Part shown: in pieces, positions 1,738 through 44,450 of the stretch | Position numbering within the stretch: position 1 is the first letter of the stretch | Layout of the letters: the number at the start of each line of letters is the position of its first letter | The notes under the pieces: model-generated | Seen by the model: only the letters and a program-made list of their open reading frames with translations | What the model was told of the DNA's origin: nothing | Database searches by the model: none | NCBI RefSeq assembly: GCF_000336385.2 | Contig: NZ_HG424447.1 | Coordinates: 1 to 47,568, forward strand | DNA length: 47,568 nt | Direction of reading: 5' to 3' | Source of the DNA: Lysobacter antibioticus HS124 | GTDB lineage: Bacteria > Pseudomonadota > Gammaproteobacteria > Xanthomonadales > Xanthomonadaceae | Program-made: the position numbers and the translations under genes

Positions 1738-4287
1738 ATGAACGACGCCCATCGCCCGAACCCCGACGGGCCGCAACTGCGGACCCTGTTGCTGACCGAC
1801 CTGTGCGATTCGACCACTCTGGTCGAACGGCTCGGCGACGGCCCGGCGGCGGGTCTGTTCCGCGAGCACGATCGTCTGGTGCTGCAGCTGCAGCAGCGTT
1901 GGCGCGGGCGCTTGATCGACCGCTCCGACGGCCTGCTGCTGCTGTTCGAGCGCCCGATCGACGGCCTCGGCTTCGCCCTGGACTACGCCCGCGGCCTGCG
2001 CGAACTCGGCGCCAGCCGCAAGGTCGAGCTCAAGGCCCGCGCCGGCTTGCACGTCGGCGAAGTGCTGACCTGGCGCAACAGCGACGAGGCGGTGCGGGTC
2101 GGGGCCAAGCCGGTCGAGGTCGAGGGCCTGGCCAAGCCGATGGCGGGCCGGCTGATGGCGACCGCGCGGCCGGGCCAGATCCTGCTCTCGGCGGTGGCCG
2201 AGCCGCTGGCCCATCGCGCCGCGCGCGAGCTGGGCGAGCGCGGCCAGCAGCTGCTGTGGAAATCGCACGGCCGCTGGCGCTTCAAGGGCGTGCCCGAGCC
2301 CCAGGAAATCTACGAGGTCGGCGAGCCCGGCATCGCGCCGCTGCGCGCGCCGCCGAACGGGCCCAAGGCTTGGCGCGACATCCCGCTGTGGCGGCGCCCG
2401 GCGGCGCTGGCGGCCGAGATCGCGGTGCTGGCGGTGATCGGCACCGGCATCTGGTTCGCGACCCGGCCGCAGCCGGCGATCGCTTTCAACCAGCGCGACT
2501 GGGTGGTGGTCGGCGACTTGCGCAATCTGACCGGGCAGAGCGTGCTCGACGATTCGCTGGAGCAGGCGTTCCGGATCAGCCTGGAGCAGTCGCGCTACGT
2601 CAACGTGCTGTCCGATCTGAAGGCGCGCGACACCCTCGACCGCATGCATCGCAAGCCCGACACCGTGCTCGACCGCGCGATCGCCTCGGAGATCGCGCTG
2701 CGCGACGGCGCGCGCGCAGTGATCCTGCCGACCGTGGCCGAGGTCGGCGGGCGGGTGCGGGTCAGCGCCGAGGTCATCGATCCCCACACCCAGACCACGG
2801 TCTACGCCGAATCCGCCGACGGCGTCGGCGCGGCCTCGGCCCTGGCCTCGATCGACGAGGTCACCGGTGCGCTGCGCGGCAAGCTCGGCGAAGCGCTGAA
2901 GAACATCGAGAAGGACTCCGAACCGCTGCCCAAGGTCGCCACCGGCAACCTCGACGCGCTGCGCGCCTACGCCCTGGGCAGCAAGGCCTATGCGCACCGC
3001 CAGTTCGACGAGGCCCTGCAGTACTTCCAGCGCGCGGTGCAGATCGATTCGAATTTCGCGCTCGCCCATATGGGCGTGATGCGCGTTTACGTCAGCAACG
3101 CCGACACCGATGCGGCGCGGCCTTATCTGGAAAAGGCGCAGCAACTGCGCGACCACCTGACTCCGCGCGAAGCGCTGTACCTGGACGCCTGGGCGGCGGA
3201 GTTCGGCCCGCAGCCCTCGCTGCGCGCGCCGCCGAAGTGGAAGCTGCTGGCCGGGGTCTACCCGGACTACTTCGCCGGCCGCTACCAGTACGCCTGGTCG
3301 GAATTCCTCGCCAACCGTTTCGACAGCGCGCTGGCGGCGACCACCGCGGCGACCGCGCCGCAGGAACCGCTGCGCAACGTCGCCTTCGAACTGGCCGGCC
3401 GGGTGCATTTGTCGCAGGAGCGCTACGCCAAGGCGATCGAATCGTTCAAGCAGGCCGAGGCCAGCGGCCACTACCCGCCCAACCGTCGCCACGCTGCCGC
3501 GCTGGCGGCGATGCGCCGTTTCGACGAGGCCAACCGGATGCTCGACGCGCTCAGCGCCGACGGCGACATCGGCTCGGCCAACCTGACCGTGCAGTTCGAA
3601 CGCATCGCCGTGGCCCTGGACCAGGACGACCTGGCCCGCGCGCGCGAACTGTCGCGCAAGGCCGCCGAGGCGGCGCGCGACGCCGGGCTGCTGGTGCGGC
3701 ATCCGATGCGTTTCACCGATTTGCTGGTACGCAGCGTATCCGGGCAGAACCCGCCCAGCGCGAGCGAGATCGAACAGTTCGCCCAGGGCGTGCTCAACGA
3801 CGCGGTCAAGCCCGGCAGCGCCGACCAGGACGACTTGTCGGCGATCGCGTTGGCCGCGGTGCGGCTGGCGCAACGCCAGGGCGAGCGCGGCGTCGCCGAA
3901 CGTTTGCTGCCGCGCGTGGCCGGGCTGGTCGATGTCAGCGGCAACGGGCAATCGCGCAAGCTGCTGCGGATCGCCTATGCCGAGCAGGCGCGCCTGGGCG
4001 GCGATCCGCAACGCGCGGTGCGCGAACTGCGCGCTCTGCTCGACGGCAGCGAACCGTTCCAGGCCCGGGTCGCGTTGCGCGATGCGCTGCTGGCGGCCGG
4101 CCGGGCGGAAGAGGCGGCGAGCGAGAACCGCTGGATCGCCGACCACCGCGGCCGCGCTTACGCCGAGCCGATCGGCGGCCAGGTCTATCTGGCGATGAAC
4201 GTGGCCGATGCTGCGCGCGCCCGGCGCGAGGCGCCGCGCACGGCGGCCCTGATCCAGGTGCTCGCGCCGGTCGCCGCCGCGGGCTGA
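1738..4287 (+). CDS. Class III cyclase-like / TPR membrane protein (putative peptide modification system cyclase)
   Basis: An 849-residue protein with an N-terminal class III nucleotide cyclase-like domain (about 14-195), one membrane segment (about 220-242) and a large periplasmic or C-terminal TPR-rich helical region (about 390-840). Two candidate metal-binding aspartates are visible, D21 in TDLCDST and D64 in DRSDG. The lysine that normally selects ATP and the paired Asn and Arg of the second half are not recognisable, the latter region reading VEGLAKPMA, so cyclase activity is uncertain. The arrangement matches a family I recall as 'putative peptide modification system cyclase', found beside a small precursor and a SagB-like dehydrogenase, as here. 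AAGG at 1725-1728 favours the ATG at 1738 over the one at 1729. It is downstream of the GGDEF gene and convergent with the precursor gene. Confidence 0.85.
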   Translation: MNDAHRPNPDGPQLRTLLLTDLCDSTTLVERLGDGPAAGLFREHDRLVLQLQQRWRGRLIDRSDGLLLLFERPIDGLGFALDYARGLRELGASRKVELKARAGLHVGEVLTWRNSDEAVRVGAKPVEVEGLAKPMAGRLMATARPGQILLSAVAEPLAHRAARELGERGQQLLWKSHGRWRFKGVPEPQEIYEVGEPGIAPLRAPPNGPKAWRDIPLWRRPAALAAEIAVLAVIGTGIWFATRPQPAIAFNQRDWVVVGDLRNLTGQSVLDDSLEQAFRISLEQSRYVNVLSDLKARDTLDRMHRKPDTVLDRAIASEIALRDGARAVILPTVAEVGGRVRVSAEVIDPHTQTTVYAESADGVGAASALASIDEVTGALRGKLGEALKNIEKDSEPLPKVATGNLDALRAYALGSKAYAHRQFDEALQYFQRAVQIDSNFALAHMGVMRVYVSNADTDAARPYLEKAQQLRDHLTPREALYLDAWAAEFGPQPSLRAPPKWKLLAGVYPDYFAGRYQYAWSEFLANRFDSALAATTAATAPQEPLRNVAFELAGRVHLSQERYAKAIESFKQAEASGHYPPNRRHAAALAAMRRFDEANRMLDALSADGDIGSANLTVQFERIAVALDQDDLARARELSRKAAEAARDAGLLVRHPMRFTDLLVRSVSGQNPPSASEIEQFAQGVLNDAVKPGSADQDDLSAIALAAVRLAQRQGERGVAERLLPRVAGLVDVSGNGQSRKLLRIAYAEQARLGGDPQRAVRELRALLDGSEPFQARVALRDALLAAGRAEEAASENRWIADHRGRAYAEPIGGQVYLAMNVADAARARREAPRTAALIQVLAPVAAAG

Positions 4288-4476
4288 GGCGCCGCATCGG
4301 CTTCGACCGGGTGCCGGCGGCGGCGCTGCTCGAGCGTTCGCCGGACCGCAGCGCGATCCGGCGCGATCTGTGCCGCGATCGGACGGCGGCGAGGTCGATA
4401 CGACGGAGCGCGACGGGCGGTTCCGTCGCGGCGGCAGGCTCCCCGGCCCGGCGCCGCGCGGAATCGCCGATGCGGT

Positions 4477-4854
4477 TCAGCTCAGCGTGCCGCCGCCCGA
4501 ACCGATCGTGCCGCCGGGGCCGACGGCGCCGGCCGCGGTGGCCTGGACATGGCCGAACTCGAGCACGAACACCACCGTGTGGGTGCCGGCCGAAGTGAAG
4601 TAATCGCGCAGCACGTCGCGCGAGGCCTGCAGTTCCTCTTTGCTCGCCAGCAAGCTGACGTTGAGGCAGCTGCCGCCGGTCAGCGCGGCTTCGCTCTGCA
4701 GCGGCGCCAGGCCGACGCTCTGCAGCGCCCCTTCGGGGTTGCTGGCGAAGAGTTGGCGGAACTGGTCGTCCGAGCTGAGCAAGTCGAGCAACTTGTCGGC
4801 GATTTCGGGCGCCAACGGCGGATGCCCGCCCTGGCCGGTGTTTTCGATGGACAT
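4477..4854 (-). CDS. NHLP-like modified-peptide precursor (RiPP candidate)
   Basis: A 125-residue small protein whose first part (about 14-50) has the nitrile-hydratase-alpha-like leader pattern, with FRQLFASNPEGAL at 32-44. A Gly-Gly pair stands at 60-61 just before the only cysteine, C63. A second helical block covers 71-86, a hydrophobic strand 93-99, and the last 20 residues are almost wholly Gly, Ala, Thr and Ser. There is no Sec signal. The ATG is preceded by AAGGGG at good spacing; a longer upstream reading frame is not supported. It lies between a cyclase-like gene and a SagB-type dehydrogenase gene, which is the setting of the 'putative modified peptide' family I recall. The core, cleavage site and modification are unknown. 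No dedicated peptidase-ABC exporter is in the window. Confidence 0.85.
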   Translation of the reverse strand: MSIENTGQGGHPPLAPEIADKLLDLLSSDDQFRQLFASNPEGALQSVGLAPLQSEAALTGGSCLNVSLLASKEELQASRDVLRDYFTSAGTHTVVFVLEFGHVQATAAGAVGPGGTIGSGGGTLS

Positions 4855-4870
4855 CTGTTTCCCCTTGTGA

Positions 4871-4887
4871 AGATCCGTCTTGGATCT
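4871..4887 (-). promoter_or_regulatory. Stem-loop in the leader of the precursor mRNA
   Basis: AGATCC (4871-4876) and GGATCT (4882-4887) are perfect complements around a 5-base loop. In the precursor transcript this hairpin would sit immediately 5' of the AAGGGG ribosome binding site. It could affect translation or mRNA stability, which is inference. Confidence 0.4.
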
Positions 4888-4899
4888 GTCTGCGGCGGA

Positions 4900-4928
4900 A
4901 TTTATCCCTGATATGGAGCGACTCACAA
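4900..4928 (-). promoter_or_regulatory. Candidate sigma70 promoter of the peptide precursor
   Basis: Read on the minus strand, TTGTGA (4928-4923) and ATAAAT (4905-4900) are separated by exactly 17 bases and lie about 46 bases upstream of the precursor start codon. This AT-rich patch stands out in the GC-rich surroundings. No transcription data are available. Confidence 0.45.
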
Positions 4929-5103
4929 CCTTCGGGCTCCACAGAGCAGTCACGCGAAAGCGCAGAACGGTCGGCCAATGGCGATCCAATGAACGCGTTC
5001 AGCTAGCTGCCTGCGGCATCGCCCGGCATCATGGCGCCTGCCGGCGCGATTCGCGCGCCGCACGCGCCGCGCGGCGGCGGTCCTACCACCACTCGGGGCG
5101 TTC

Positions 5104-6282
5104 ATGCGTATCCGCCGTTGCAGCGTGCTGTTCCTGGAGCCGCGCGAAGACGTGGCGTTCGATCTGTCGTCGCTGTTGGCCGGCGGCGCCGGGTTGGCGC
5201 GGCAGCGCCGCTGGCTGGCGCTGGCCGCGCACCTGGACGGCGAGATCGAGATCGATGCGGCGCAGCGCGAATTGCTCGGCCGGATCAGTCCGGGCGAATG
5301 GAGCGAGGCGGCGGCTTTCGACGCCGACGCGGCGACCTTGGCGGGCCTGCTCGACGTGGGCCTGGTGCTGAGCGACGGCGACCCGCCCGCGCGGGCGGCG
5401 CTGCGCGAGCGCGACGAACGCCTGCGCGAGGCGCATTGGTGGCCGGCCGCGGCGATGATGCACCGGCTGGCGCGCTGGCAGGGCCTGGACAGCGTCGGCG
5501 CGATGGAGGCCAACCAACTGCACACCGCGCCGGACCTGCGGCGCAAGCTCGGCGCGCCGCCGGCGCATGCGCCCTCGCGCGCCGATGCCGGGCCGACGCT
5601 GGCCCTGCCGCGCGTCGGCGACACCAACTTCGACCGCCTGCTCGCGCAGCGCGCCACCTGCCGCAACTTCGATCCCGAGCGCGCGCTGAGCCGCGAGCTG
5701 TTCGCGCACATGCTGCAGCGCGTGTTCGCCGCGCAGTCGATGGTCGCCGTCGCCGACGATACCGTTTTCCTCAAGAAGCACTCGCCTTCCGGCGGCGGCC
5801 TGCACCCGACCGAGGCTTATCTGATCGTGCAGCGGGTCGACGGCATCGCCCCGGGGCTCTATCACTACCACCCGGTCGAGCACGCGCTGGAACCGCTGCC
5901 GGCGCCCGAAGGCGAGCTGCATGCGTTCGCGCTGCGCGCCCTGGCCGGCCAGCACTGGTTCGCCGACGCCGCGGCGATGGCGGTGTTGACGCCGCGCTAC
6001 GCGCGCAGCTTCTGGAAATACCGTTACCACGCCAAGGCCTATCGAGCCCTGGTGCTGGACAGCGGCCACCTGTCGCAGACCCTGTATCTCAGCGCGACCG
6101 AGCTGGGCCTGGGGGCGTTCGTCACCGCGGCGATCAACGAGGTCGATATCGAGCGCGCGTTCGGCCTGGACCCGCTGGTCGAAGGCCCCTTGGCGATCTG
6201 CGGCTTCGGCTGGCGCGGCGAACGCATGCGCAATACCGAGTTCGATCCCAGCGGCGCGATCTGGCCGCGAGCGCCGCAGTAG
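5104..6282 (+). CDS. SagB-type FMN dehydrogenase, putative peptide maturation
   Basis: A 392-residue protein with a winged N-terminal segment (about 1-110) and a nitroreductase/SagB-like FMN domain (about 170-390). FMN-contact features are visible: Arg187 in TCRNF, the SPSGGGLHP loop at 227-235, and a Tyr/Lys-rich segment at 306-315 (YRYHAKAYRA) where SagB and McbC proteins keep catalytic residues. Enzymes of this group oxidise azolines to azoles or otherwise dehydrogenate peptides. No cyclodehydratase (YcaO) gene is nearby, so azole formation is not assured. The gene diverges from the precursor gene across 249 bases and matches a family I recall as 'putative peptide maturation dehydrogenase'. 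No signal peptide or membrane segment is seen. Confidence 0.85.
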   Translation: MRIRRCSVLFLEPREDVAFDLSSLLAGGAGLARQRRWLALAAHLDGEIEIDAAQRELLGRISPGEWSEAAAFDADAATLAGLLDVGLVLSDGDPPARAALRERDERLREAHWWPAAAMMHRLARWQGLDSVGAMEANQLHTAPDLRRKLGAPPAHAPSRADAGPTLALPRVGDTNFDRLLAQRATCRNFDPERALSRELFAHMLQRVFAAQSMVAVADDTVFLKKHSPSGGGLHPTEAYLIVQRVDGIAPGLYHYHPVEHALEPLPAPEGELHAFALRALAGQHWFADAAAMAVLTPRYARSFWKYRYHAKAYRALVLDSGHLSQTLYLSATELGLGAFVTAAINEVDIERAFGLDPLVEGPLAICGFGWRGERMRNTEFDPSGAIWPRAPQ

Positions 6283-6367: not shown

Positions 6368-7459
6368 ATGTGGCCCGACCGCCGTATCCAGGACTTGTTC
6401 GGCATCCCATTGCCGATCGTGCAGGCGCCGATGGCCGGGCCGAATCTGGCCGAGCTGGCGATCGGCGCCATGCAGGCCGGCGCGCTCGGCTCGCTGCCGT
6501 GCGCGATGCTCGGCGTCGAGCAGGCGTTGGCGCAGTGCCGGCAGGTGCGTGAGGCGACCGCGGCGCCGCTGAATCTCAATTTCTTCTGTCATCGGCCGCC
6601 CGAGCCGGACCCCGCGCGCGAGGCGGCCTGGCGCGATCGGCTGGCCGGCTACTACCGCGAATACGGCCTGGACCCGGCGATGCCGCTGACGCCGTCCGGC
6701 CGTGCGCCGTTCGACGAGGCCTATTGCGAGCTGGTCGAGCAGGTGCGGCCGCAGGTGGTCAGTTTCCATTTCGGCCTGCCGGCGGCGCCTTTGCTCGAAC
6801 GCGTGCGTGCGGCCGGAGCGCGGGTGATCTCCTCGGCGACCACGGTGGCCGAAGCGCGCTGGCTGGAGGCGAACGGCTGCGATGCGATCGTCGCCCAGGG
6901 GGCGGAGGCCGGCGGCCATCGCGGCGTGTTTCTCTACGACGGCCCGTTGCAAGACGGCGTCTCGACCCAGCTCGGCCTGTTCGCGCTGTTGCCGCAGGTG
7001 GTCGATGCGGTGCGGGTGCCGGTGATCGCCGCCGGCGGCATCGGCGATGCGCGCGGCATCGTCGCCGCGTTCGCGCTGGGCGCAGCCGCGGTGCAGCTGG
7101 GCACGGCGTATCTGTTCTGTCCCGAAGCGAAGTTGTCGCCTATGCACCGTCAAGCCCTGCGCGAGGCGCGCGACGACGGCACGGCGCTGACCAATCTGTT
7201 CACCGGCCGGCCGGCGCGCGGGATCGTCAACCGGCTGATGCGCGAACTCGGCCCGATGTCGCCGCTGGCCCCGGAATTCCCGCTCGCCGGCGGTGCCTTG
7301 GCGCCGTTGCGCGCGCAGGCCGAAGCCGCCGGAGGCGCCGATTTCACCCCGCTGTGGTCGGGGCAGGCGGCGCGGCTGGGGCGGGATCTGTCGGCGTACG
7401 CGCTGACGCGCAGTTTGGCCGAGGAGAGCCTGGCGATGCTGGCGCGCGCAGCGGGTTGA
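6368..7459 (+). CDS. Nitronate monooxygenase-family flavoenzyme
   Basis: A 363-residue FMN TIM-barrel protein of the 2-nitropropane dioxygenase / nitronate monooxygenase family. It keeps the N-terminal IVQAPMAG, the QGAEAGGHRG segment with His184, and the phosphate-binding IAAGGIGDARG. Class I enzymes oxidise alkyl nitronates to carbonyl compounds and nitrite; related barrels include enoyl reductases, so the true substrate is open. It follows the SagB-like gene by 85 bases on the same strand and might share its transcript; a role in peptide maturation is only a possibility from this position. It ends in front of a hairpin-rich convergent intergenic region. Start ATG 6368 follows a weak AGG ribosome binding site. 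Confidence 0.85.
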   Translation: MWPDRRIQDLFGIPLPIVQAPMAGPNLAELAIGAMQAGALGSLPCAMLGVEQALAQCRQVREATAAPLNLNFFCHRPPEPDPAREAAWRDRLAGYYREYGLDPAMPLTPSGRAPFDEAYCELVEQVRPQVVSFHFGLPAAPLLERVRAAGARVISSATTVAEARWLEANGCDAIVAQGAEAGGHRGVFLYDGPLQDGVSTQLGLFALLPQVVDAVRVPVIAAGGIGDARGIVAAFALGAAAVQLGTAYLFCPEAKLSPMHRQALREARDDGTALTNLFTGRPARGIVNRLMRELGPMSPLAPEFPLAGGALAPLRAQAEAAGGADFTPLWSGQAARLGRDLSAYALTRSLAEESLAMLARAAG

Positions 7460-43188: not shown

Positions 43189-44364
43189 TCAGGCCACCGG
43201 GTGCACGCAGCCGAGTACGCGCAGCCCGCGCGCGCCGGTGACGCTGGGCAGGTTGCCGGGCAGCCCGGCCAGGGTCTGCCGCGCCAGCCAGGCGAAGCCC
43301 ATCGCTTCGACGAAGTCCGGGTCCAGGCCATAAGCCGCGGTCGATTCCACCGTCACCCCGGGCAGGTGCGCCGCGATCCGCGCCAGCAAGGCGCCGTTGC
43401 GCACCCCGCCGCCGCAGGCCAGCACCCGTCGGGTCGCCGGCTGGTGCGCGCGCAGGGCGTCGGCGACGGTGATCGCGCTGAGTTCCAGCAAGGTCGCCTG
43501 CACGTCCTGCGGCGCCTCGCCGCCTCGCAACTGCGCCTCCAGCCAGGTCAGGTGGAACTGTTCGCGACCGGTGCTCTTCGGCGGCGGCAGGGCGAACCAG
43601 GGTTCGCCGCGCAGGCGCGCGAGCAGTCCGGCGTCGACCGCGCCGGACGCGGCGAAGCGGCCGTCGGCGTCGTAGGGCGTGCCCAGGTGGCGCAGCGCCC
43701 AGGCGTCGAGCAGGCAGTTGGCCGGCCCGGTATCGAAGCCGCGCACCTCGCCGCGCGCCGGCAGCAGGGTGAAGTTGGCGATGCCGCCGAGGTTGAGCGC
43801 TGCCCGATCCTCGCCGGGGTCGTGCAGCAGGGCGGCGTGGAAGGCCGGCATCAGCGGCGCGCCGTGGCCGCCGGCGGCGACGTCGCGGCGGCGGAAGTCG
43901 GCCACCGTGGTCATGCCGCTGCGCTCGGCGATCACCGCGCCGTCGCCGATCTGCCAGGTGAAGGGGTGGCGACCGTCGTAGCCGGCGCCGGCCGGGCGAT
44001 GGCGCACGGTCTGGCCGTGCGAGCCCAGTGCGGCAACCGCGTCCGCGGCGATCCCGGCTTCGCCGATCAGCGCGGTGGCGGCGTCGGCGAAGGCTTCGGC
44101 GACCTGCACGTCCAGCGTGCCCAGTTCTTCCAGCGCGCGCGCATCGCCGCCCTGGCCGAGTTCGACCAAGCGCTCGCGCAGCCGCGCTTCCCAGGCATAA
44201 GTGCGGCCCAGCACCAGTTCGCAACGGGTCGGCGTGCCGGCGGCGAAACGCACCAGCGCCGCATCGATCCCGTCGGCGCTGGTGCCGGAGATCAGTCCAA
44301 GATAAAGGCCGGAGGGCGGCAGGCCCGCGCCGGCGTCCGAGCGGGTCGAGGAGGTTTCAGCCAC
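43189..44364 (-). CDS. anmK: Anhydro-N-acetylmuramic acid kinase
   Basis: A 391-residue ASKHA-fold kinase that phosphorylates and opens 1,6-anhydro-MurNAc to MurNAc-6-phosphate in peptidoglycan recycling. The N-terminal [14 protein letters not shown] phosphate-binding motif, [20 protein letters not shown] and the C-terminal [10 protein letters not shown] are present. The start GTG 44364 follows GGGAG, giving a roughly 20-residue leader before the family domain. The first 20 codons lie in a 73-bp unit that is repeated just upstream, so a second, truncated copy of the N terminus precedes the gene. It lies downstream of the M23 peptidase gene on the same strand, past a terminator. Confidence 0.95.
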
Positions 44365-44450
44365 GACGAGGCTCCCAAAGGCCGGAGGGCGGCAGGCCCG
44401 CGCCGGCGTCCGAGCGGGTCGAAGAGGTTTCAGTCACGGCGCGGCTTCCC
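44304..44450. repeat. 73-bp imperfect tandem duplication over the anmK start
   Basis: The unit AAAGGCCGGAGGGCGG... occurs at 44304-44376 and again at 44377-44450, with about 90% identity or better and a one-base length difference near the right end. Each copy contains the anmK start codon region and first 20 or so codons. Copy 1 is inside the functional gene, copy 2 just upstream. Confidence 0.9.
44357..44437 (-). other. 26-codon mini-ORF, remnant copy of the anmK N terminus
   Basis: GTG 44437, in the upstream repeat copy, has AGGGAAG before it and opens a 26-residue frame ([20 protein letters not shown] then WEPRRG) ending at TGA 44359-44357. It overlaps the true anmK start by 8 bases, so ribosomes ending on it could restart at anmK. 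Whether it is translated is not known. Confidence 0.55.

Follow-up and report, generated by a model that had tools for sequence, protein, structure and literature searches.

We studied a stretch of 47,568 nucleotides from Lysobacter antibioticus HS124 (contig NZ_HG424447.1, forward strand), called the window below, which near its left end contains a group of genes that may form a peptide signalling system, see Table 1. An earlier description made from the letters alone, the original prediction, had placed a compact cassette for a modified peptide here: a precursor, a cyclase with TPR repeats and a dehydrogenase that depends on flavin mononucleotide (FMN), together matching three NCBI families named as a putative peptide modification system. 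The three families were named rightly, as all scores lie over their cut-offs, and the dehydrogenase is of SagB type by its matches to both TIGR04511 and TIGR03605. The cassette does hold these three genes, but a fourth conserved gene, that of the cNMP-GGDEF protein, was missed. It is likely the first gene of the unit, which would then start upstream at 663. The precursor and cyclase genes are convergent, 3' end to 3' end.

Table 1. Features of the locus (positions in the window).
Feature	Position	Strand	Basis
cNMP-binding and GGDEF protein, 349 aa	663..1712	+	Pfam cNMP_binding and GGDEF; XC_0249 ortholog
Cyclase-TPR protein, 849 aa	1738..4287	+	TIGR04510, 1149.7 bits (cut-off 400); alternative start 1729 possible
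Cyclase catalytic domain, about residues 10-215, conserved output half	1765..2382	+	metal and active-site residues
Single transmembrane helix, about residues 222-242	2401..2463	+	hydrophobic segment; model helix 217-241; cluster of allele boundaries
TolB-like domain, residues 254-388, expected periplasmic	2497..2901	+	alpha/beta region of the model; weak Pfam FlgO
TPR solenoid, residues 405-848, variable, putative sensor half	2950..4281	+	Pfam TPR; helical model
Precursor-like peptide, 125 aa	4477..4854	-	TIGR04509, 86.5 bits (cut-off 34)
Precursor C-terminal tail, residues 89-125, proposed mature signal	4480..4590	-	hypervariable, coupled to TPR; low model confidence
SagB-type FMN dehydrogenase, 392 aa, type I	5104..6282	+	TIGR04511, 579.7 bits (cut-off 240); TIGR03605, 121.1 bits

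The precursor is as first described: it has 125 residues, a leader like that of the nitrile hydratase leader peptides (NHLP), a single Cys in the motif GGSC and an end rich in Gly, Ser and Thr. The Cys beside a Gly-Gly pair stands for this precursor but is not general: 11 of 150 precursors contain no Cys at all, Gly-Gly precedes the Cys in some precursors only, and a conserved Cys core is absent. A Cys does lie within 20 residues before an LA-x-K motif in 112 of the 140 precursors that have this motif. In the structure model of the precursor, with a predicted local distance difference test score (pLDDT) of 70, helices extend from residue 16 to 87 and are followed from about residue 90 by a low-confidence tail (pLDDT mostly 45-59), which suggests that a helical, NHLP-like part reaches to about residue 88 and that a disordered tail follows. 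Searching the PDB with the precursor gave nothing below an E-value of 0.49, and it resembles the Os1348 family weakly, with 22.9 bits against a cut-off of 40.

The dehydrogenases fall into two types, the lower-scoring type II being mostly encoded on the opposite strand to the cyclase (15 of the 22 matches below 250 bits; several of the other seven are cut or broken). Short precursors, many of which end like GWIIFCR, accompany the type II enzymes. All 85 type I and all 9 type II enzymes keep a Lys-Tyr pair, K305-Y306, whose counterpart in the alignment with McbC is K201-Y202. In azoline dehydrogenases the pair has a catalytic role, for which a literature search on Lys201/Tyr202 gave no source. 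Two cysteines, 6 and 186, are found in 84 and 82 of the 85 type I enzymes, while the nine type II enzymes have Arg at the first position and Thr or Ser at the second.

The absence of YcaO, LanM and a peptidase-containing ABC transporter from the window was also seen correctly. YcaO has no match in the whole genome, which is rated 100% complete, so that azoline oxidation lacks its usual partner, and we therefore rejected azole formation. Three C39 matches and one LanC-like match exist in this genome, all on other contigs. Over the family, C39 matches occur in 128 of 198 genomes, and 12 of the 20 named genomes that have none (50 further ones are unnamed) carry the precursor; C39 transporters are therefore not the general export route. 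For the three-family system no product is known, as the original prediction had said.

To follow the cassette through the family Xanthomonadaceae we used profile searches with curated cut-offs over 198 genomes. The precursor family TIGR04509 is found in 122 of them, TIGR04510 in 121 and TIGR04511 in 119, and matches to precursor and dehydrogenase occur in 39 of 54 genera. Precursor and cyclase are together in 119 genomes; three have the precursor only (two of these still hold pieces of the cyclase under the cut-off), two the cyclase only and 74 neither. The linkage of the three genes, which the original prediction had proposed to look for with the family models, is conserved and far from chance.

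For the comparisons below we collected 121 loci, i.e. the window and 120 places from 119 genomes: 118 of the 121 further genomes with a precursor (G120, G136 and G175 were left out) and G054, which was included although it has no precursor. Of the 120 loci that bear a cyclase, 111 have the cNMP-GGDEF gene upstream of it and on its strand. Precursor and cyclase converge in 117 of the 119 loci where both are present, and the gap between their open frames has a median of 3 nucleotides (5th to 95th percentile -52 to 179). A further, named set consists of the best 80 of 115 relatives from GTDB genomes, and comprises Xanthomonas, Lysobacter, Pseudoxanthomonas, Stenotrophomonas, Luteimonas, Thermomonas, some Lysobacteraceae, [Pseudomonas] boreopolis and one record titled Bacillus. 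A GGDEF neighbour (also when required upstream on the same strand), a dehydrogenase match and a precursor are each present at 79 of these 80 loci, the exception always being L210, a contig of 3.6 kb. Outside the family, among 369 genomes of the class, the dehydrogenase exceeds its cut-off once, at a locus with all four genes in a family of the same order, sister to this one; order-wide the precursor family is over its cut-off in 82 of 299 genomes.

Some loci depart from the common layout. The record titled Bacillus subtilis SK7B5 (L228) has a typical locus of the Xanthomonadaceae kind and is probably mislabelled. In genus g22 (L136, L137) an expanded version is found, with several precursors and dehydrogenases, no strong cNMP-GGDEF neighbour, nine and five precursor matches in the genomes G022 and G067 and two cyclases in L137. 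L097 has five near-identical tandem precursors about 400 nucleotides apart, adjoining dehydrogenase and cyclase, again with no strong cNMP-GGDEF neighbour. The locus of G054 (L112) holds the cNMP-GGDEF protein and the cyclase but matches neither precursor nor dehydrogenase, and would be a receptor without signal genes. At the Xanthomonas phaseoli locus L172 the matches to cyclase, precursor and dehydrogenase are weak or split, and at the X. vasicola locus L178 that to the dehydrogenase is weak; both are possible decayed copies.

The cyclase had been taken for a part of the peptide modification system. By its sequence it belongs instead to the nucleotide cyclases, with the guanylate cyclase XC_0250 of X. 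campestris as its ortholog. According to the published text on that protein, residues 1-220 convert guanosine triphosphate (GTP) to cyclic GMP (cGMP) in vitro, the activity depends on D41, D71, L73, A150, L157 and A161, and the linked cNMP-GGDEF protein XC_0249 binds cGMP, whereupon more cyclic di-GMP (c-di-GMP) is made (An et al. 2013, PMC3770947). Mutants of either gene are described there with less biofilm and with virulence defects, and the TPR region is called uncharacterised (PMC3770947). Its Figure 1 shows gene context; in the text itself no word starts with peptide, dehydrogenase, operon or periplasm.

All six of these residues are found in the Xanthomonas locus L036 at identical numbers counted from the ATG, in a protein of 886 residues, the length of XC_0250. 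They are also all present in the cyclase of the window, shifted by 7, and in that of L115. Over 94 aligned loci they are conserved in 94 (D41), 94 (D71), 73 (L73), 94 (A150), 73 (L157) and 90 (A161) cases, the invariant ones corresponding to D34, D64 and A143 of the window. The aspartates at the metal positions, D21 and D64 by alignment with solved cyclases, are kept in all 121 of the 122 aligned rows that have a residue there, and the catalytic domain shows similarity to class III cyclases. The partner is equally conserved: the cGMP contacts of XC_0249 F73, E90, L91, H98 and E146 are found in 94 of 94 loci, V142 in 79 and N145 in 78, and the GGDEF motif is present in all 94. The best PDB match of the cNMP-GGDEF protein of the window is chain 5h5o, which is 96% identical to the protein of L036 and which we take to be the XC_0249 domain. 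X. campestris is not among the 80 named loci; from its congeners, we infer that its own locus carries the peptide and the dehydrogenase as well.

One hydrophobic segment is found in each of the 79 named cyclases longer than 780 residues. Where measured (75 proteins), the mean net charge is +4.7 in the 20 residues before this segment and -0.9 after it. The positive side is at the cyclase end, therefore the catalytic half is expected in the cytoplasm and the rest, the TolB-TPR half, should be periplasmic. The structure model of the window protein (pLDDT 85.7, predicted template modelling score 0.68) consists of the cyclase domain, a transmembrane helix at 217-241 predicted with low confidence, an alpha/beta domain and a helical solenoid. 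The name TolB-like for the predicted alpha/beta domain is our own label; the Pfam match to FlgO at 261-357 is weak (E-value 0.0058) and under its cut-off. The structure alignments used 62 of 79 references for the cyclase and 70 of 78 for the precursor.

What the original prediction had missed is the structure of the alleles: judged by sequence distances, the C-terminal part of the peptide goes with the TPR half of the cyclase. We compared the pairwise distances of ten segments in the 94 of 121 loci that have exactly one precursor above 40 bits and all four genes over the thresholds; pairs share loci and are not independent. The catalytic domain tracks the cNMP (rank correlation 0.85) and GGDEF (0.78) domains. 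For the C-terminal half of the precursor the rank correlation is 0.68 with the dehydrogenase, 0.61 with the segment TPR2 and 0.25 with the catalytic domain. When cNMP, GGDEF and the catalytic domain are controlled for, its partial correlations are 0.645 with the dehydrogenase, 0.56 with TPR2, 0.45 with TPR1 and 0.33 with TolB, while that with the catalytic domain, controlling for cNMP and GGDEF, is 0.03. In none of five permutation tests did any of 500 permutations reach the observed value, and bootstrapping by genus gives 0.42-0.69 for the partial with TPR2. Without the nine type II loci the correlation of the C-terminal half is 0.54 with TPR2 and 0.39 with the catalytic domain.

By sequence, the two halves of the cyclase have a split history. 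As far as residue 259, slices of 40 residues correlate better with cNMP (0.67-0.79) than with the dehydrogenase (0.37-0.48); the correlation changes just past the transmembrane helix, and later slices follow cNMP at 0.11-0.57. The stretches 250-409, 460-559 and 760-829 follow dehydrogenase and peptide more than cNMP, with a peak at 760-829 (0.64 with the C-terminal half of the precursor, 0.69 with the dehydrogenase). The conserved chromosomal flanks aceA/aceB and ComM were tried as control clocks and found poor, as their correlation is weak even with cNMP (0.34-0.45); with the C-terminal half it is 0.03-0.15.

The same coupling is seen between close relatives. The 39 pairs within a genus whose catalytic domains share 95% identity or more split completely by TPR class: in 26 pairs TPR2 is at most 50% identical and the C-terminal half of the precursor 6-52%, and in the other 13 TPR2 is at least 60% and the C-terminal half 56-100% identical. 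Wherever TPR2 reaches 70% identity (14 pairs), the C-terminal half does so too. At the level of DNA, the Xanthomonas loci L056 and L154 are 97.2% identical over 7.0 kb, ending just past the region that codes for the transmembrane helix, have no detectable match over the remaining cyclase, the precursor and the dehydrogenase, and are then 98.9% identical across 7.3 kb. Change points in 82 same-genus pairs fall at cyclase residues 220-245, i.e. the transmembrane helix (9 pairs), 260-280 (8), 340-360 (11), 400-420, i.e. the first TPR helix (37), and residue 511 (6), the commonest being residue 414.

In another pair, L119 and L120, the exchanged block is smaller. Their DNA is 93-100% identical to about position 7000, drops to 43-72% between about 7200 and 8800, and returns to 92-99% in the leader region. 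The divergent stretch takes in the TPR, the 3' end of the cyclase gene and, of the precursor gene, the 3' half alone; the leader and dehydrogenase proteins are shared, at 97% and 94% identity. In 25 same-genus pairs where leader and dehydrogenase are both at least 75% identical (loci are shared between pairs), the C-terminal half follows TPR2 with a rho of 0.94, compared with 0.63 for the catalytic domain, 0.45 for the dehydrogenase and 0.31 for the leader. By parts, the rho with TPR2 is 0.94 for the tail, 0.86 for the helix and 0.74 for the linker.

Xanthomonas was studied with 23 named loci (the fragmented L172 was left out), and with 22 for the dehydrogenase (without L178). The median identity is 93% for the catalytic half, 29% for the TPR half, 37% for the tail and 46% for the dehydrogenase. 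At 50% identity the tail, the TPR and the dehydrogenase each form four clusters, which agree completely (adjusted Rand index 1.0). When placed on a tree built from 2.5 kb of left-flank DNA of the 23 loci, the alleles need 9 changes, where shuffled alleles need 9.8 on average and as few in 74 of 200 cases; records of X. arboricola alone hold three of the four alleles. In six chosen species pairs with a common allele the TPR DNA is 72-75% and the flanks 83-87% identical; where the alleles differ, as in four other chosen pairs, the values are 44-48% for the TPR DNA and 92-96% for the flanks. The alleles look old, and species seem to share them. This is the pattern of pherotypes: the sensor half varies with the peptide, the output half is conserved, and the alleles are scattered over the flank tree.

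With a probability of roughly 55%, we propose that the cassette is for peptide signalling and has an allele-specific receptor: a peptide modified by a SagB-type enzyme would be read by a guanylate cyclase, and the message would pass from cGMP to c-di-GMP. The proposal builds on the linkage, the topology signals, the split history and the allele exchange seen in the sequences, and in it the tail would be modified, leave the cytoplasm and bind the TPR half. The folded leader of the precursor would guide the FMN dehydrogenase, by which the C-terminal part would be oxidised. The tail might then be released to the periplasm or the outside, where the TolB-TPR half would bind its cognate tail, as the co-variation suggests, and control the cytoplasmic cyclase domain. 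This domain would make cGMP, as in print for XC_0250, and cGMP would bind the neighbouring cNMP-GGDEF protein and raise c-di-GMP, as in print for XC_0249 (PMC3770947), so that biofilm would be favoured. Because the genes lie 3' to 3', the ends that code for tail and sensor are side by side, and one DNA exchange could swap ligand and sensor and spare the output half.

We hold more tentatively, at odds a little below even, that it is a pheromone system of a new build: an NHLP-type ligand modified by a dehydrogenase, a guanylate cyclase as receptor, the 3'-to-3' layout as a device to exchange ligand and sensor, and private groups of Xanthomonas and Lysobacter species with one output in common, from cGMP to c-di-GMP. 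The receptor would then be, to our knowledge, the first in bacteria to read a peptide as a guanylate cyclase. If the proposal is true, a peptide system that was an orphan, known from family names, is joined to the pathway from cGMP to c-di-GMP that controls biofilm and plant infection, and the neighbouring peptide is the likely input of this pathway, whose input is otherwise unnamed. Further, receptor guanylate cyclases would join the ways in which bacteria read peptides, and plant pathogens and biocontrol agents would be polymorphic in their signals. Our searches of the open-licence PMC literature gave no title or beginning of an abstract that connects the peptide system with the cGMP pathway, which does not prove absence.

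A number of observations weigh against the signalling proposal. In the whole set the C-terminal half is linked more to the dehydrogenase than to TPR2, and many short slices of the TPR region (e.g. 610-649 and 730-769) follow peptide or dehydrogenase no better than cNMP. When dehydrogenase, leader and TolB are also controlled for, the partial with TPR2 falls to 0.28 in all loci (genus bootstrap 0.13-0.42) and 0.35 in type I, and its excess over the link of the leader itself is not firm (bootstrap difference -0.05 to 0.47). Among 21 pairs with a C-terminal half at least 70% identical, three have TPR2 below 50% (L088/L089, L089/L134 and L143/L147). Ten of the 121 loci have no strong cNMP-GGDEF neighbour (in L046 and L123 a contig end truncates the locus), and there are up to four precursors at some loci, and nine in one genome, for one or two cyclases. 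There is also no YcaO, the usual partner in azoline oxidation. In a search of the C39 family we found no exporter for the cassette, and C39 is absent from cassette-bearing genomes that are at least 99% complete (G005, G008, G017, G018, G027, G033 and G037).

Several of these points would be expected if peptide and TPR half were coupled by passive linkage, the 3' block being a recombination hot spot or a fast-evolving island in which neighbours change together. Peptide, TPR half and dehydrogenase are contiguous, the Xanthomonas alleles swap the dehydrogenase and the leader too, and the fully controlled partial is modest; our tests exclude co-variation through mere linkage only in part. We still consider this explanation unlikely. 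The C-terminal half and TPR2 move together even where leader and dehydrogenase are conserved, the boundary in L119/L120 lies inside the precursor gene, boundaries recur at the transmembrane helix and the first TPR helix, and different species share alleles.

A little less probable still is kin discrimination, with the peptide as a bacteriocin and the periplasmic TPR half as its cognate immunity or danger sensor. Allelic pairs of toxin and immunity would swap in the same way, and for the related Os1348 of Pseudomonas, of the NHLP clan and with a SagB-type enzyme downstream, the published text reports a tie to antibiotic activity (PMC7726476). Here, however, the variable half is fused to an enzyme that would make a messenger and has a conserved active site, the C39 search found no exporter, and the mutants of XC_0250 and XC_0249 are described in the text with defects in biofilm and virulence, not with self-killing (PMC3770947).

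We find it improbable that the TPR half is an internal scaffold, which would hold precursor and dehydrogenase during modification, with cGMP as a read-out of maturation. The tail does co-vary with both TPR and dehydrogenase, and TPR domains often bind peptides, but with one transmembrane helix and the positive charge at the cyclase end the TPR half would be on the other side from the GTP-using cyclase and the FMN enzyme. That the cyclase takes part in the peptide chemistry, as the name of TIGR04510 words it, has a negligible probability, and we reject a peptide-cyclising enzyme, since residues 1-220 of the ortholog make cGMP from GTP in vitro (PMC3770947) and the class III similarity and key residues are conserved.

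Around the cassette, a pattern scan of 4200-5200 found no promoters or terminators. A nitronate monooxygenase-like protein (Pfam NMO, 6368-7459, +) lies directly downstream of the dehydrogenase; we rejected it as a member of the cassette, since only 6 of the 121 loci, that of the window among them, have a homolog nearby. A perfect array of the hexamer ACGGCA (7.5 copies, 180-224) precedes the cNMP-GGDEF gene, and a 73-bp unit is present in two direct copies, 94% matching, at 44304-44446.

When the cassette is compared with known systems, the closest by name are the NCBIfam families TIGR04509, TIGR04510 and TIGR04511. Their three members are adjacent here, but the names give no product or mechanism, call the cyclase a modification part, and have no family for the cNMP-GGDEF partner. 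From the NHLP peptides exported by C39 transporters the cassette differs, as Gly-Gly stands before the Cys in some precursors only, the contig of the window has no C39 match, and several genomes that bear the cassette have none at all. With the McbBCD and SagBCD azole microcins it shares a McbC/SagB-type FMN dehydrogenase with the Lys-Tyr pair; in contrast to them there is no YcaO in the genome and no conserved Cys core. The Os1348 cluster of Pseudomonas sp. Os17 is similar in its small NHLP-clan protein, its SagB-type enzyme and a cyclodehydratase that was not found, but according to its published text it has acetyltransferase and peptidase-like genes, and the word cyclase was not found in that text (PMC7726476). 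The XC_0250/XC_0249 pathway agrees in the orthologous pair, the active-site and cGMP-contact residues and the linkage; peptide, dehydrogenase and allele swapping are added here.

In animals, the natriuretic-peptide receptors have a single transmembrane helix, an outer part that binds the peptide and an inner guanylate cyclase. The build proposed here is the same, but the outer domain and the ligand are unrelated, and the likeness is an analogy only. In ComQXPA of Bacillus and Agr of staphylococci, the peptide, its modifying enzyme and the sensor half of the receptor change as a block, the output half is conserved and the alleles are scattered. The cassette resembles them in this block change of peptide, enzyme and putative sensor half over a conserved output. 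Unlike them, it has a guanylate cyclase in the place of the histidine kinase, a SagB-type dehydrogenase as the modifying enzyme, and a secretion and activity of the peptide that are putative.

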